From: Elusimicrobiota bacterium
GTDB taxonomy: Bacteria; Elusimicrobiota; Endomicrobiia; Endomicrobiales; Endomicrobiaceae
Assembly: GCA_017528425.1 (NCBI GenBank)
Contig: JAFXOV010000064.1
Coordinates: 1-60,966, forward strand
Reading direction: 5' to 3'
DNA length: 60,966 nt
Made by a program: the position numbers and the translations under genes. This document shows positions 50,152 through 58,801 of the stretch, piece after piece. Position 1 is the first letter of the stretch. Every line of letters begins with the position of its first letter. The notes under the pieces were generated by a model that saw only the letters and a list, made by a program, of their open reading frames with translations, had not been told where the DNA came from and did no database searches.

Positions 50152-50526
50152 ATGATTAAGATTTTAGTTTGTGATGATGAAATTTTTGCAAGAGATGCAA
50201 TGGCAAAAATCATCAGAAGGAAAGGTTTTGACGTTGTTGTTGCTTCCAACGGGGAAGAATGTATAGATTTGTTTAAGAAAGAAAACCCCGAAGTTGTTTT
50301 CTTGGATGTAATGTTGCCCGATTTGGACGGTGACCACATTCATAAATATTTGAAAGAATTGAAACAAGATATAAATGTTTATTATATTACCGGTTCGGAT
50401 TCTGTTTTTACACGAGAAAATGCAAAGATGGCCGGGGCTAAAGGTTATTTGCAAAAACCGGTAGATATAGATCTTTTGTTTGAAACATTGGATAACATAA
50501 AGAAAGATTTCGGAGAACAAAATTGA
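50152..50526 (+). CDS. CheY-like single-domain response regulator
   Basis: The 124-aa product is a receiver domain alone: acidic pair in LVCDDE (D8, D9), phosphoacceptor D52 in VVFLDVMLPD, and K102 in GYLQKPVD. Without an output domain it must act by protein contact. It is divergent from the aminopeptidase gene, and its end overlaps the start of the next gene by four bases, linking it with a run of exported proteins rather than with a kinase. Its partner kinase is unknown; no chemotaxis genes are near. Confidence 0.9.
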   Translation: MIKILVCDDEIFARDAMAKIIRRKGFDVVVASNGEECIDLFKKENPEVVFLDVMLPDLDGDHIHKYLKELKQDINVYYITGSDSVFTRENAKMAGAKGYLQKPVDIDLLFETLDNIKKDFGEQN

Positions 50527-51821
50527 AAATAAAAAAAATATTGTCAGTCTTGTTAACGTTGTGTTTATTTGTTAATGTTTCTTTTGCTTTCGATCCTTAT
50601 GCCGATGAAGAAGTAGAAAAAAAATCTTACAAAAAATTATATTACGGTATAGCACTTACCTTATTAGGCGGTTTTCTTGCATATGACGGTTTTTCTTTAG
50701 AAAAAGTCGACGCTTCCAAACCGAATGTGGATTTTCTTTCGGTCTCTCACTCCGAATGGGTACAATTAACAGGTGATAAAGAAGAAGAAAGTGATGATGA
50801 AGCAGAAAGTAATGACAAAGCAGAAAGTAATGACAAAACAAAACCGAGATATCAACTAAGATCAGGAATTTCACTGAATAACGTTCCAGGTATAAAGTAT
50901 TATAATAAAGATGGTACCAGAATTGTTGATTATAGCATATATGAAGTAAAGAAAAATTCAGACGTTAATTTAGATGATAATACTAATACGGGATTAAACG
51001 AACAAGAGCCTCCCTATGATCCCGCGGATTATGATCGATACACAGTAGAACCAAATATTTTATATAACAACGGTAATGTGGATTTAAGAGACATTACAAT
51101 AGAAGTCAGGTACAAATTTAGTGATGGATACATCGGAACATTTAAGAAAATAGATGAAGATGGTAACTATATTTTGAATGAAGAAACCGGAGAGCCGGAA
51201 ATAGTTGTAGTACATACGGATAAAAACGGTCATTACTCTTATGAAGACGAACAAGGAAATATGCATTCCGGTTATGTGGAAAATCAGGCATACCATACGG
51301 CAGAAATAAAAGCAGGCACGATAGATTATTATAATGAGAAAGATAAAGCTATTGAGATAAAAGACGGTGATGAAAGAGTTAAAGTGTATGAAAACCTGGA
51401 ATTAAAAAAAGGAGCATCTCTAACCTGGCAAGATGTTTGGGAATATACAACAGACAGAGAAGATTCTCCGGCAGATGCGAACAGAGCAAATCATTTTTAT
51501 GATCCGATAAACGAAGATCCGGATAAAAAATATGATCCGGGTACGAATGGCCTTAACTTAGGAAAAAACTCCACTGTTATTATGGAAGTCAGAGTAAAAT
51601 TAAAAAAGAATCAGCAATATACACCGATATACGAAACAAAGCATAAAAGCGATTTGGAAGGTGTTGCCGGTATGTTTATCGGAATTGCAGGGCTTTATTT
51701 TATAATTGATCATTTTTTTGATATGCATAAATTTAATGCTTATGCCAAAAGACATCATTTGAATTTGAAAATTGCAACCGCTGCTAACCAATATAAACTG
51801 ATGTTACAAAAAAGGATATAA
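50523..51821 (+). CDS. exported protein of unknown function with acidic repeat stretch
   Basis: The 432-aa product has a signal peptide (ILSVLLTLCLFVNVSFA), a hydrophobic helix about residues 41-57 (YGIALTLLGGFLAYDGF), and a long hydrophilic middle rich in Asp, Glu and Lys. This includes tandem AESNDK units at about 93-105 (DNA direct repeat near 50807-50835). A late hydrophobic segment, GVAGMFIGIAGLYFIIDHFF, follows near residue 385. No family is recognised. Its start overlaps the CheY-like gene by four bases; the GH81 gene follows after 18 bases. The paired helices at both ends suggest an inner-membrane protein with a large external loop. Confidence 0.6.
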   Translation: MKIKKILSVLLTLCLFVNVSFAFDPYADEEVEKKSYKKLYYGIALTLLGGFLAYDGFSLEKVDASKPNVDFLSVSHSEWVQLTGDKEEESDDEAESNDKAESNDKTKPRYQLRSGISLNNVPGIKYYNKDGTRIVDYSIYEVKKNSDVNLDDNTNTGLNEQEPPYDPADYDRYTVEPNILYNNGNVDLRDITIEVRYKFSDGYIGTFKKIDEDGNYILNEETGEPEIVVVHTDKNGHYSYEDEQGNMHSGYVENQAYHTAEIKAGTIDYYNEKDKAIEIKDGDERVKVYENLELKKGASLTWQDVWEYTTDREDSPADANRANHFYDPINEDPDKKYDPGTNGLNLGKNSTVIMEVRVKLKKNQQYTPIYETKHKSDLEGVAGMFIGIAGLYFIIDHFFDMHKFNAYAKRHHLNLKIATAANQYKLMLQKRI

Positions 51822-51839
51822 AGAAGAAAATATGGGAGT

Positions 51840-54578
51840 ATGATGAAAAAAACAGTTCTGCTTTTTACGGCGTTGATAGTTTTTTCTTCAATTTGTTTTG
51901 CCGTTCCGTCTCAACCTACAGACAAATCTTCTTTCAGCAACACAATTCCTACAGGTTCAATTCCTCCTGATCCGACTTTTATAACATCAAATATAACAAA
52001 TCCTATTCCTACAAATAAATTTTTTAATTCGGTAATAAATAATCCTTATCATAATTATTCATTAAATATGTACACATATCCGCAAGTTCTCAGAGCGGAA
52101 AGAACAGGCCTTTTAATAGAGTATCCGGAAATTATGTATTCGGCAGATAAAATAAATTATAAAGATAACGACTACGATGTTGGTGCCGATACAAAAGCAA
52201 ATACAATATCTGTTTCGATTTCAACAACAGTTTCAAACGGATATACTATTAATTTTCCGTCGGCAAAGTTAGACGGATATTCCGATTTTGCCGCTACAAT
52301 CAAATGGGAAAACGACGACGATTTTTGGATGAAATCAACGATAGTTCAAGGCTCTCCTTTTTCCTATTACGAATTTTGCAAAGGAGTATATCCTTCTATA
52401 GGTTTTCCGTACGAATGGGGAAATTATTGGGACGGTTCAACTCCCGGTTATACTTTATACGATGCCGGAACAGGTGAGCAAATAGAAGAATCTGTGCTGG
52501 AATATACAGCGGATGCAGCAATTTTACATGTTCATCTTACAACGAAAGATCTTTATTACGGAATATTTGTTCCTGCGGGAACAAAGTTTGTTCAAGACAG
52601 CAACAACTTGAGAGGAGGAACAAATTATTTCCCGTGGGTTAGAACTGTAATTAATTTTTCCGGAAATGAGAGATATATGTCTATAGCGCTTCTTCCCTCT
52701 GCAAGTTTGGAAGAAGCTGTTGAAGATATAAGCACATATTACAAATATGCTTATAATTTTGTTACCGACACTAAAGCAAATTGGGAAGTTTCTTCATCGG
52801 ATTATTCCTCACAAACAACATTTAATTTTATTACTGCAAAAAAAAGAACCGTTGCGGAACAACAAGAAGGTACAATATTTTGTTTATATCCTCACCAATA
52901 CAACAACGCTGTTTCGGTTAGTTATATAAACAACAAAACTTTTGATACTTTAAGAGGGAAATTAAAGGTAGCAAAAGGTACCGGCTTTTCAACAAAAGTT
53001 GAGTTCAAAGGAATAATTCCCTTTTTCCAGTATGATGTAGAAGATATAAAAGACGACTTAACTTTTTACTTAACAAATGATGCTAACGGAATAAAAATAG
53101 ATACGGATCCGTACTACGGGAACCCTTACAGAGCCGGAAAAGTTATTGCTAAACTTGCCAATCTTTTACCTATAGCGGATAATTTAAAAGACGATACCGT
53201 TAAAAAAAGTATTCTTATTAAACTAAAGGCATTACTTAAAGATTGGTTAACCTATTCCGCTAGTGAAACGGACAGATATTTTGCTTATGATACCATTTGG
53301 GGCGGTATTGAAGGAATAAGAGATAATGAATTTTATTCTTTTAGATACAACGATCATCATTTTCATTTCGGATATTTCATTTATTCTGCGGCAATTCTTG
53401 CAATGTACGATACAAGTTTTGCCAATGAATACGGACAAATGGTAAATCTTTTAATAAAGGATATTGCCAACACAACAAGAGACGATTCTAATTTCCCTTT
53501 CATGAGACATTTTGATTTTTATGAATCTCACAGTTGGGCAAACGGTATGGGCGGAGCGGACAATGGAGGAATAGATCAGGAATCTTCTTCCGAAGCCATG
53601 AATGCATGGAGCGCAATATATTTATGGGGCCTTGCTACCGGAAACAAAGAATATGAAAATCTCGGAATATACTTGTATTCCAACGAATATGAAGCAATCA
53701 AATATTATTATTTTGATATAGACGGAGAAATTCTAACCTCATCATATAACCACAATTCTATAGGAAGACTTTTCGGCGGGTTTGTTTCGTACGATTTGTT
53801 TTTCTATCCGATGATTCCTCAAACGATAAAAGGAATACAGGTTTTACCGATGACACCTGCAATGACATATTTAGCTTACGATAAATATTATCTTGATGAT
53901 TTTTATAGTCAATCCATAACCGAAAGCGGTGCTAATCAGGCTTTTTGGTACGATATTTGGTCAAGGCTCGTTGCTTTATATGATCCGCCGGAAGCAATAT
54001 CAAAATTTGATGCTTATAAAGAAACCGATCCTGAAGAAGGCAGCTCGATGAGTTTTACTTACCATTTCATAAATTTCTTTGATAAGTACGGAACACCGGA
54101 ATTTACACATACTGCCGATACGTCGAGTTATATGGTTTTGGAAAAAGACGGAATAAATACTTACTGTGCATATAATCCCGGCAGCAATTCAAAAAATGTT
54201 AAATTTTATAATTCTTCGGGAGAACTGTTAGGTTATTTACATGTACCGAGAAAATCTTTTGCAATGACACAAAAATTGTCGGAAAAAGTGCCGGGAGAAA
54301 AAATTTTGGTATATCCCATTCCTTATAAACCCAACAGCGGCGGAAAGTATGGCGGTGACGGAATATATTTTTCAAATATTGATGAAGGAACCAATATACA
54401 AATATTCAATATTGCAGGCGAAAAAGTCTTTGATAAAACGGTCGATGAGGATTCGGGAGAATTTTTATGGAATGCTAAAAATAATGCCGGTAACGATATT
54501 GCTTCCGGTGTGTATTTTTACTATATAAAAACGTCGGACGGTACAAAAGTAAAAGGTAAACTTGCCATAGAGAGATAA
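51840..54578 (+). CDS. secreted GH81 endo-beta-1,3-glucanase with FlgD/T9SS-like C-terminal domain
   Basis: The 912-aa product has a signal peptide (TVLLFTALIVFSSICFA) and a GH81 catalytic region: NKFFNSVINNPYHNYSLNMY at the N-terminus, NDHHFHFGYFIYSAAILAMY (D505) and GGIDQESSSEAMNAW (E581, E585) in the active site. It should cleave beta-1,3-glucans such as laminarin, callose or yeast wall glucan. The last ~90 residues, from ILVYPIPYKPNSGGKYGG to ASGVYFYYIKTSDGT, are a FlgD-like/type IX sorting-type domain, like that of the M6 protease. It lies between the unknown exported protein and the M23 gene, 3 bases from the latter. Confidence 0.88.
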   Translation: MMKKTVLLFTALIVFSSICFAVPSQPTDKSSFSNTIPTGSIPPDPTFITSNITNPIPTNKFFNSVINNPYHNYSLNMYTYPQVLRAERTGLLIEYPEIMYSADKINYKDNDYDVGADTKANTISVSISTTVSNGYTINFPSAKLDGYSDFAATIKWENDDDFWMKSTIVQGSPFSYYEFCKGVYPSIGFPYEWGNYWDGSTPGYTLYDAGTGEQIEESVLEYTADAAILHVHLTTKDLYYGIFVPAGTKFVQDSNNLRGGTNYFPWVRTVINFSGNERYMSIALLPSASLEEAVEDISTYYKYAYNFVTDTKANWEVSSSDYSSQTTFNFITAKKRTVAEQQEGTIFCLYPHQYNNAVSVSYINNKTFDTLRGKLKVAKGTGFSTKVEFKGIIPFFQYDVEDIKDDLTFYLTNDANGIKIDTDPYYGNPYRAGKVIAKLANLLPIADNLKDDTVKKSILIKLKALLKDWLTYSASETDRYFAYDTIWGGIEGIRDNEFYSFRYNDHHFHFGYFIYSAAILAMYDTSFANEYGQMVNLLIKDIANTTRDDSNFPFMRHFDFYESHSWANGMGGADNGGIDQESSSEAMNAWSAIYLWGLATGNKEYENLGIYLYSNEYEAIKYYYFDIDGEILTSSYNHNSIGRLFGGFVSYDLFFYPMIPQTIKGIQVLPMTPAMTYLAYDKYYLDDFYSQSITESGANQAFWYDIWSRLVALYDPPEAISKFDAYKETDPEEGSSMSFTYHFINFFDKYGTPEFTHTADTSSYMVLEKDGINTYCAYNPGSNSKNVKFYNSSGELLGYLHVPRKSFAMTQKLSEKVPGEKILVYPIPYKPNSGGKYGGDGIYFSNIDEGTNIQIFNIAGEKVFDKTVDEDSGEFLWNAKNNAGNDIASGVYFYYIKTSDGTKVKGKLAIER

Positions 54579-55520: not shown

Positions 55521-55545
55521 CGAAAAGATATTTTATAATTAATGT

Positions 55546-55575
55546 AAAAACGGGAAATTTTTTCTTCCCGTTTTT
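55546..55575. terminator. bidirectional terminator between M23 and response-regulator genes
   Basis: AAAAACGGGAA (55546-55556) pairs with TTCCCGTTTTT (55565-55575) with an 8-base loop. T-rich sequence follows on both strands, so it can end both convergent transcription units. Confidence 0.88.
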
Positions 55576-56608
55576 ATTTTGTTAAATTTTCGAGAATTAA
55601 ATTTTTTACCTGTTCGGTAACATTTCGTTTAGGCGAAGAAAATACTGTTTTTATTATCAAGTCTGCAGTCAAATCTTTAGCTTTTAAAAATTTCGTGTAT
55701 CTGTTGGCATTTTTTAAATCGAGTCCGCTGATATCGGTAGAATCGGTAAACACCGCAAATGTTTGTATGAAAGGTCTGTAAAATTCGTCGCGAATATTAA
55801 AATTATTTTCTTTTAATATCTTTTCTATTTTTTTACTTACTTGCTTAAATTGATTATCTGTTTGTTCAAAAAGATTTCTTCTTTTTTCGGATAGAACTTC
55901 TTTTTCGTCGATTATTATTTTTGTGTCTTCATTTACTCCGCCTACCAACTTTGCATTAGGGAAATATTTTGTTTCAAATATTAAAACCGCAAAAGGTAAT
56001 GGAGGTTTTGTAAAAGCAATAACGTCTATTTCTTGCCCGAATACAACCACATTTTTCTTGGGTGATAAAATAACTTTATTAAACCGAGATATTTTATTAA
56101 ATATTTCTTCTTCAAACATTCTTCCCGCACCGTTTTGAGATTGCTGTTTGCTGTCCAACATAGAATTTAAAATAGTGTTTTTCGATTGCAACTCCTGGAC
56201 GGTTTTGTTTAACGAACTTTCCTGTGCTCTAAGAGCTTTTTTTATTTTTACTATAAGTTCTGTTTCTGTTACAGGTTTGGACATAAAATCGAAAATCATA
56301 TCTCCGGCAACTTCTGTTACCGACTCTCCGTAAGTTTTTTCCATTGCCGATAACAAAATAACTTGTACGGAAGGTGCGGTTTGTTTTATAAACGGCAAGA
56401 TATCTATTCCTGTTTCGCCTAAACCGAAATGAATATCCAAAATCAAAAGATTAATTGTGTTTGGATTATTAAGTAAAAATTTTTTTATTTCAAGTGTCGA
56501 AGAAAATTGTTTTACTTCAACATTATCAAAATGTTTAAGAATAGTTCTTTCAAGAGCATTTCTTATGTTTGAATCATCATCGGTTAAAGCAATAATTTTC
56601 TTCTCCAT
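55574..56608 (-). CDS. response regulator with a NERD (nuclease-related) output domain
   Basis: The 344-aa product has a receiver domain (residues 1-125: acidic DDD at 10-12, phosphoacceptor D58 in LLILDIHF, K111 in FMSKPV), a coiled-coil linker (about 125-158) and a C-terminal region. That region (160-340) resembles the NERD domain: G-x-M-F-E-E-E-I at 162-169, then D195 in QEIDVIAF and E212-T-K214 in LIFETKY, a D/E-x-K arrangement like PD-(D/E)XK nucleases. It lacks a DNA-binding helix-turn-helix. AAGGAGAAC precedes the ATG. The kinase gene is 9 bases upstream, so they form one two-component system. Confidence 0.75.
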   Translation of the reverse strand: MEKKIIALTDDDSNIRNALERTILKHFDNVEVKQFSSTLEIKKFLLNNPNTINLLILDIHFGLGETGIDILPFIKQTAPSVQVILLSAMEKTYGESVTEVAGDMIFDFMSKPVTETELIVKIKKALRAQESSLNKTVQELQSKNTILNSMLDSKQQSQNGAGRMFEEEIFNKISRFNKVILSPKKNVVVFGQEIDVIAFTKPPLPFAVLIFETKYFPNAKLVGGVNEDTKIIIDEKEVLSEKRRNLFEQTDNQFKQVSKKIEKILKENNFNIRDEFYRPFIQTFAVFTDSTDISGLDLKNANRYTKFLKAKDLTADLIIKTVFSSPKRNVTEQVKNLILENLTK

Positions 56609-56617
56609 TTGTTCTCC

Positions 56618-58624
56618 TTAAATTTTATACATAGGAATTGAAATGTTTGTTTTCAACCCTTTTTCACTGTTTTCTACAACATTTGCAGCTGTTATTTTAC
56701 CATTTAATATAGATACAAAATAAGCGGTATGGATAGTTCCTTCTCCCAACCTCTTACCTTTTGAACTTTCAATTTGTTCTTTATAAAGTTTTTGTAATTT
56801 TGTTTCTTCGACACCGCCCGCATTATCCGTAACGGATATTATTAAATTTTTTAAATCCTGTGACATTTTTAACGAAACATTTAATTTTGCAACAAAATTA
56901 TCGTCGAGCAACAATTTTTGTAAAGCAAATATGGAATTATCTAAGATATTATTTATGGCAACAAAAATTAATCTGTTCGTATAACAATAAAATTTTGTTA
57001 TATCTTCATCAAACTTGTTTAAATTTATTTTTATATACGGAGCTAATTTTAAATTGTAAAATTCTATTTGATTCTCTATCTGTTCCTGAATATACGAAAC
57101 AGTATTTTTAGACAGCTTTCCTGTTCCCAGCTCTTCAATATGTTCTCTTGTGTTTTTTTGATTTTCCAAAATGGCATCTTTGTAGGGTTTTACTATTTTT
57201 TCGTAAACTTCAGATAATAAATCGTTGAATCCCGTATTGGTTTTTTCAAGTTCGTTTATTAAATCGTGTCTGCTGCTTCTCAAAAGTTCAACCGTATCTT
57301 GTGACCAGTTAAGTTCCAACGCCTGAAGTTTTTGTCTTTGCGTATCGAAAGAATCTGAAATTTCGGTAATGGTTTGCTTCTTTATTAACTCATTTTCAAG
57401 TGTTATATCTCTGGTCATATTGTTGTTATGTTTGTCTATCAAAATAAATGTTACGATAAGGATTATAAGCCACAAAAAATTGCTTACGTTTGCAGGGGAA
57501 ACAGAATTTGACTGATAGTATCTTATAGGTGTTATTCCCGTCAAATTTATAATGATGGAAATGTATATCAAAACAATAACAATCGAAACCAAAAATAATG
57601 TCAATATAAAATTCATAATATCGGAATCAAACTCTTTTTTATTTAAAATGTTTCTTTGTAAATAACTGAAATCAAATGAGTTTTTGCGAACGGGAATCAA
57701 TATTTTCAAAAATAGCAACAATATTATTATAATCAGCGGAATAGAAATCATTTCCAGAAAGATAAAACCTTGAACGGAATTTGCCGAAATATCAGTCATA
57801 ATGTTAGTCAGTATTGTATTCGAAACGGATTTTACGGTGGTAATGTATATGTATCCGGTAATAACGAAAATTATAAATTCTACTATGGATATATTTGCCA
57901 TACAAATTTTGAACCAAAAGATATTATTGTTTTTTACTTTTTGTTGATAATGTTGAGTAAACATTGTTGTGTTATATTTTAATATTGTCATTGAAATTAT
58001 AGAACCTATGAATACTGTAACTATAATGTTTGGAATTTCTATAAATGTTTCCGCAATGTAGTTTGCTATTATGGATAAATATCCGGAATTATCAATAAGA
58101 AACATATTTCTGAACAGTTCCGTAAAATAAATGGAATAAGGTTGTTTAAATATTGCATCATGAAAAATTACATTTTTTACTATAGAAGACGGTATGGATA
58201 TTATAAGACCTGCGGCTATGGCTGCAAACAGAACAAACTTTATAACTATAAGAAATATTTGTTTAAAGTTATTTTTATTTTTGCTTTTTGTGTTGAATAT
58301 TATAAGGTTTCCGGTTTCGGCAAGCCAACCCCAAACAAGAGCTCCCGTCATATTTATAACGGCAACATAAATAAAATGGGGAGAAGTTATGTTTGATAAT
58401 ACAATAGGAGTTGCAATTGCGGCAATGAGTGCCCAAATAGTTCCGAGCGTCATTGCAACAACAAAAGTTCCTACCATATCGAAAGTCAAAAATCTGTAAC
58501 TGTTTTCGTAAACGAAACTGTGTCCTGCCCAATTTAACAATACGGCAAAACAAGTTATAAGAATATGAAATCTTTTCTTATAAAAAGAATCATACATATC
58601 TAAAAGAATATCTTTTATATTCAT
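56618..58624 (-). CDS. membrane sensor histidine kinase
   Basis: The product (668 aa from the chosen start) has about ten membrane helices. The first five (FLTFDMVGTFVVAMTLGTIW, MTGALVWGWLAE) look like an ECF-transporter S-component-type sensor, followed by a second helical block (to about 400). A coiled-coil region then leads to the H-box-like SSRHDLINELEKT and an HATPase domain with N box FVAINNILDNSIFALQ, G1 box SVTDNAGGVEE and RLGEGTIHTAYFV. The ATG at 58750 would run through tRNA-Asp, so the ATG at 58624 is chosen, though no ribosome binding site is seen. Its partner is the NERD response regulator. Confidence 0.82.
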   Translation of the reverse strand: MNIKDILLDMYDSFYKKRFHILITCFAVLLNWAGHSFVYENSYRFLTFDMVGTFVVAMTLGTIWALIAAIATPIVLSNITSPHFIYVAVINMTGALVWGWLAETGNLIIFNTKSKNKNNFKQIFLIVIKFVLFAAIAAGLIISIPSSIVKNVIFHDAIFKQPYSIYFTELFRNMFLIDNSGYLSIIANYIAETFIEIPNIIVTVFIGSIISMTILKYNTTMFTQHYQQKVKNNNIFWFKICMANISIVEFIIFVITGYIYITTVKSVSNTILTNIMTDISANSVQGFIFLEMISIPLIIIILLLFLKILIPVRKNSFDFSYLQRNILNKKEFDSDIMNFILTLFLVSIVIVLIYISIIINLTGITPIRYYQSNSVSPANVSNFLWLIILIVTFILIDKHNNNMTRDITLENELIKKQTITEISDSFDTQRQKLQALELNWSQDTVELLRSSRHDLINELEKTNTGFNDLLSEVYEKIVKPYKDAILENQKNTREHIEELGTGKLSKNTVSYIQEQIENQIEFYNLKLAPYIKINLNKFDEDITKFYCYTNRLIFVAINNILDNSIFALQKLLLDDNFVAKLNVSLKMSQDLKNLIISVTDNAGGVEETKLQKLYKEQIESSKGKRLGEGTIHTAYFVSILNGKITAANVVENSEKGLKTNISIPMYKI

Positions 58625-58670: not shown

Positions 58671-58700
58671 TTGACAAAAAGATTAATATTGTTGTATAAT
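58671..58700 (+). promoter_or_regulatory. promoter of tRNA-Asp
   Basis: TTGACA (58671-58676), 18 bases, TATAAT (58695-58700); both boxes are perfect. The tRNA starts at 58723. Confidence 0.85.
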
Positions 58701-58722: not shown

Positions 58723-58801
58723 GGGAATGTGGTGTAGCCTGGTTTAACACACTGCCCTGTCAAGGCAGAGACCGCGGGTTCAAATCCCGTCGTTCCCGCC
58801 A
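58723..58801 (+). tRNA. tRNA-Asp (anticodon GTC), CCA encoded
   Basis: The cloverleaf folds: acceptor GGGAATG with CGTTCCC, anticodon stem CTGCC/GGCAG with loop CTGTCAA (GTC at 58759-58761), T arm GCGGG-TTCAAAT-CCCGT, then discriminator G and CCA at 58799-58801. A terminator follows. Confidence 0.95.

Follow-up and report, generated by a model that had tools for sequence, protein, structure and literature searches.

A two-component system of Endomicrobiaceae with a candidate phosphorylation-controlled NERD-type nuclease as its output

The 60,966-nucleotide contig JAFXOV010000064.1 (assembly GCA_017528425.1; hereafter the window) is contig 19 within a 2.08-Mb genome of a gut-dwelling Elusimicrobiota bacterium. 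It encodes a membrane sensor histidine kinase (HK) and a response regulator (RR) in which a receiver (REC) is fused to a divergent NERD-type domain. We infer, with a probability of about 0.58, that the pair forms a dedicated chromosomal two-component system whose RR output is a phosphorylation-controlled NERD-type nuclease of the PD-(D/E)XK class; both the catalysis and its control are putative. We favored this reading because the catalytic set is retained, the protein is under constraint and the regulator has a dedicated kinase.

Results

The output domain is a divergent NERD domain

The first-pass annotation, made from the letters and open reading frames, had described a receiver joined to a NERD-type, PD-(D/E)XK-like region built on D195 and E212-T-K214, and had suggested a search with the NERD model. 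The named residues, including D58 and K111 of the receiver, are present at the expected positions, and E166, D195, E212, K214, N245 and Q249 are invariant in the 27 aligned homologues. The Pfam NERD profile (PF08378) matched 22 of the 29 family members at E ≤ 1, the matches in orthologues covering profile positions 2–111, and three of the ten members tested exceeded the curated cut-off of 22.1 bits (L040, 25.1; L025, 24.9; L066, 22.9). The PADLOC model for MkoA matched 26 of the 29, and NERD has been reported in Mokosh, the defense system of MkoA (PMC10952713). When the family was aligned by hhalign with separately collected NERD proteins of the same phylum, P was 4.8e-5, and E166, D195, E212/K214 and N245/Q249 fell in register with the NERD motif. 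That motif, E...(I/V)D...E-x-K...(N-P-x-x)Q, is present except for the proline of N-P-x-x-Q, which is leucine in the window protein. Searching the PDB by sequence with the output domain returned chance matches only. Elsewhere in the same genome, the sole Pfam-NERD match was a short YraN-like protein on contig 31.

A fold search with the full-length model returned receivers only, so the output domain was modeled on its own. The AlphaFold2 model obtained in this way (pLDDT 89.4, pTM 0.87) has the predicted order helix 161–175, strands 180–189, 192–200 and 207–214, helix 246–267 and strand 280–287, which is the alpha-beta-beta-beta-alpha-beta arrangement of a PD-(D/E)XK core. Its Foldseek neighbors in the PDB were mostly PD-(D/E)XK nucleases; the matches included SfsA, EndoMS, SduA (Shedu), NucS, Bax1, FokI, Card1, N.BspD6I and MunI, and in a viral structure library an annotated phage NERD protein was among the best matches (probability 1.00). 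For the PglZ output domain, no match was found in the RR.

Orthologue profiles, profile–profile alignment, predicted fold and motif conservation together support the assignment of the output domain as a divergent, PD-(D/E)XK-type NERD domain. Because the individual E-values and TM-scores are modest, the case rests on the agreement of these independent lines. The annotation had named beforehand two outcomes that would contradict it, a different fold and loss of the triad in homologues; the predicted fold is PD-(D/E)XK-like and the triad is kept.

Receiver, linker and constraint on the regulator

The receiver is complete, as first described. It scored 40.7 bits against a Pfam Response_reg cut-off of 30.2 and carries the acidic pair, the phosphoacceptor Asp, the Ser/Thr switch and the Lys of response regulators; D10, D11, D58 and K111 are invariant in the 27 homologues, and position 87 is Ser or Thr. 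In the predicted model, a 22-residue helix (132–153), probably a coiled coil, connects REC to the C-terminal domain. This linker is the least conserved part of the RR, with 3 of 32 positions invariant versus 46 of 136 in the output core. The dN/dS ratio was about 0.03–0.06 in the NERD core and 0.03–0.11 in REC, and the RR is under strong purifying selection. Because dN/dS is low in both regions, the pattern of the regulator is more than chance.

The kinase and its sensor region

In 17 homologues of the HK, H453, N559, D600-x-A-G-G and G-E-G-T are invariant, and the phosphoacceptor His and the N- and G-boxes are intact. The dimerization region is SpoOB/DcuS-like, with the motif RHDLxN and a weak SPOB_a match in 14 of the 17. 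HATPase_c was found in all 17 (best E 9.3e-9), with 18.8 bits for the window copy where the cut-off is 26.4.

The kinase contains some ten hydrophobic segments, and its N-terminal part had been likened to the S-component of an ECF transporter, a suggestion that stood in part. The NCBIfam model ECF_S_CD3073 (NF045596) matched the N-terminal ~100 residues of six homologous kinases with a best E of 8.5e-9, at no more than 35 bits versus a cut-off of 180. Pfam gave no match in the N-terminal membrane region, a small hhalign test of that region against four S-components was negative, and sequence searches of the PDB with the membrane region gave chance matches only. The S-component-like match fits a small-molecule-sensing fold without proving one.

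Distribution and co-inheritance

Across 341 Elusimicrobiota genomes, the output domain was confined to the Endomicrobiaceae, at one copy per genome, and HK and RR occurred in an identical set of 32 of the 77 genomes of this family. In genomes G018 and G011 the two genes lie on separate contigs, with no kinase adjoining the RR, and both are retained; the G011 kinase carries one in-frame stop. The RR of G018 (L047), away from its kinase, stands beside dnaX-like and recR-like genes. In genome G297 (L145/L069; G297:C19, 28956–31309), numerous stops interrupt the sensor region of the kinase, and the receiver has been lost through a deletion that leaves the kinase remnants and the NERD domain fused in a single 555-aa open frame. 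The kinase stops and the receiver deletion in this genome indicate that the pair decays together.

Most reduced endosymbiont-like genomes lack the pair, as do some larger genomes, for example G019, which is a single contig. Synteny around it is conserved within the genus. The best reading is a dedicated chromosomal two-component system that is vertically inherited. Other REC-NERD fusions were sought in the phylum: 16 other NERD-profile matches were examined in full, none with a receiver, and they resemble YraN-type proteins, short nucleases, or ATPases that carry a nuclease-like domain at the C terminus. In a relative in the same genus, a UvrD-like helicase comes after a NERD domain (L094, G001:C189).

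Locus and neighboring genes

The coordinates are collected in Table 1. Judged by its nearest named relatives, the genome belongs to an uncultured, 'Candidatus Ruminimicrobiellum'-like member of the Endomicrobiaceae. The HK gene comes first and the RR gene follows after 9 bases; a 4-base overlap takes the place of this gap in some relatives. An HK start at the upstream GTG (58750) was rejected, as the frame would run into the tRNA-Asp gene and the homologues begin at the ATG position. The neighbors of the pair are an M23 peptidase gene, a gene for a large secreted protein, tRNA-Asp and, upstream of the HK, genes resembling inositol monophosphatase (IMPase) and nth, names that were given from sequence alone.

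Two further observations concern the flanks. A cluster at 50152–54578, kept beside the pair in several relatives, encodes a stand-alone receiver (124 aa), a secreted 432-aa protein and a secreted 912-aa protein with a C-terminal sorting-like region. At 58671–58700 on the plus strand, just upstream of tRNA-Asp and pointing away from the HK, there is a 12/12 match to a sigma-70-type promoter (TTGACA, 18, TATAAT).

Table 1. Positions in the window of the regulator, the kinase, their parts and adjoining elements
Feature	Position	Strand	Details
RR, NERD-type output	55574–56608	minus	344 aa
REC, residues 1–128	56225–56608	minus	Pfam Response_reg, predicted REC fold; D10, D11, D58, S87, K111 kept
Linker, residues 129–160	56129–56224	minus	long helix, probably coiled coil
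NERD/PD-(D/E)XK domain and C-terminal extension, residues 161–344	55577–56128	minus	profile, hhalign, AlphaFold2 model
Output-domain motifs			E166, D195, E212-x-K214, N245/Q249/N252/Q253
Membrane sensor HK	56618–58624	minus	668 aa, ATG at 58624
ECF S-component-like sensor part, about residues 22–107	58304–58561	minus	NCBIfam NF045596 in homologues, same position
HK motifs			H453 in RHDLxN, N559, D600, GEGT 627–630
tRNA-Asp	58723–58801	plus	upstream of HK
Terminator-like hairpin	55544–55577	both	between RR and convergent M23 peptidase gene; consensus match only

Discussion

In the mechanism that we propose, the HK would respond to a signal at or within the membrane; this signal may be a small molecule that binds the S-component-like part of the kinase. 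The HK would then autophosphorylate at H453 and pass the phosphoryl group to D58, as the complete motifs and the exact co-occurrence of the two genes suggest. Phosphorylation of D58 would act through the coiled-coil helix on dimerization or on the packing of the domains and thereby switch the NERD domain, which would cut nucleic acid, most likely DNA, by means of E166, D195, E212, K214 and probably Q249. A more specific version, in which the gated cleavage serves ordinary physiology instead of defense and is triggered by a small molecule through the S-component-like sensor, is tentative, and we would put it at short of even odds. Several points weigh against a phosphorylation-controlled nuclease. 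In Staphylococcus aureus SmdA, the domain has a function known from mutants only, and not as a nuclease (PMC9040797). The RR copy of the window itself had no Pfam NERD match, and the Foldseek neighbors of the output domain had no E-value below 1e-3 and low TM-scores (query-normalized, about 0.2–0.45). Further, the full-length model has a pTM of 0.53, which leaves the placement of REC relative to NERD uncertain.

Binding is a frequent second use of PD-(D/E)XK folds, and a NERD domain that no longer cuts could act as a phosphorylation-controlled module binding nucleic acid or protein, possibly for the chromosome, transcription or cell division. In SmdA, the NERD-type domain matters for cell morphology despite lacking several conserved NERD residues (PMC9040797). 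Unlike SmdA, every active-site residue is kept in 27 of 27 homologues of the RR, E166 and Q249, which lie outside the triad, among them, and the strong purifying selection also weighs against a non-cutting module, which we consider unlikely. The output domain might otherwise be a phosphodiesterase that acts on RNA or on a nucleotide second messenger, giving a post-transcriptional or signaling output. PorX provides a precedent, as an RR with a phosphodiesterase output that acts on cyclic and linear oligonucleotides (PMC12839542), and Card1 is among the structural neighbors of the domain. However, the output of PorX is PglZ, an unrelated domain, and the structural neighbors here are mostly DNA endonucleases, which makes this alternative improbable.

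The first-pass annotation had also offered DNA uptake, repair or defense as roles. For an anti-phage or abortive-infection system with a kinase trigger, the match of the MkoA model to the output domain could be cited; PADLOC gave no match on the window proteins themselves, the pair is not flanked by defense genes, and the partners expected in a Mokosh or BREX defense island (helicase, PLD, kinase, PglX/PglZ) were not found among the neighbors of the pair. Homologues in phages, plasmids and viral contigs were searched for and none was found, and the system is single-copy, confined to one family and syntenic within the genus. Because the neighbors are housekeeping genes and no mobile relatives were found, we regard a role in defense as very unlikely. 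The processing of DNA in natural transformation is less likely still and barely credible. Competence genes are retained and expressed in Endomicrobium (PMC8809381), and comEC and the system co-occur somewhat over the 77 genomes (P = 0.014), an association confounded by genome completeness and reduction. Uptake is disfavored because comEC is kept in genomes without the system, namely in all 11 of the large or near-complete ones that were checked.

In most response regulators the output domain is a DNA-binding one; outputs mostly act by binding DNA, RNA or proteins, or by making or breaking second messengers. The nearest system in principle is PorX of PorXY (Bacteroidota, type 9 secretion), which likewise has an enzymatic phosphodiesterase output and not a DNA-binding one, and the REC region matched PorX among other regulators; the output domain is PglZ there and PD-(D/E)XK here. 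For the coupling of NERD to phosphorylation, PglW of type 2 BREX is the nearest, and in both PglW and DndF a NERD-REase is coupled to phosphorylation signaling (PMC12839542). These proteins belong to defense systems, and their Ser/Thr/Tyr kinase is part of the NERD chain itself, whereas the pair described here would use a His-Asp relay from a separate HK gene with housekeeping neighbors. The Response_reg_2/HEF_HK systems near R-M genes are also two-component-like pairs tied to restriction functions (PMC8011034), but their regulators have no other known domain and merely adjoin nucleases, while here the nuclease-type domain lies inside the RR. SmdA shares a NERD-type domain with a cellular, non-defense role (PMC9040797); it differs in being membrane-anchored, short of several conserved NERD residues and devoid of a receiver.

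With the NERD family PF08378, the RR shares the motif order G-E, I-D, E-x-K and N-x-x-x-Q followed by a V-x-F strand, and some of its orthologues pass the Pfam cut-off. It departs from the family in the receiver fusion, in a conserved insert and C-terminal extension (K242-R243, R278-P-F-I, P326-K-R) and in reading N-L-F-E-Q for N-P-x-x-Q, the window copy lying below Pfam detection. The parts are known, and a search of the open-access literature, which leaves out subscription papers, turned up no REC-NERD protein; our search for fusions covered the phylum, and others may exist elsewhere.

NERD is a widespread domain whose function, according to the SmdA paper, had not been tested previously and whose biochemistry is almost unstudied (PMC9040797). 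If the RR is indeed a phosphorylation-controlled nuclease, an environmental signal would be linked to nucleic-acid cutting in one step, under direct His-Asp control, which would be an unusual output for bacterial signaling. The NERD domain would then gain a system in which its activity can be switched and assayed.
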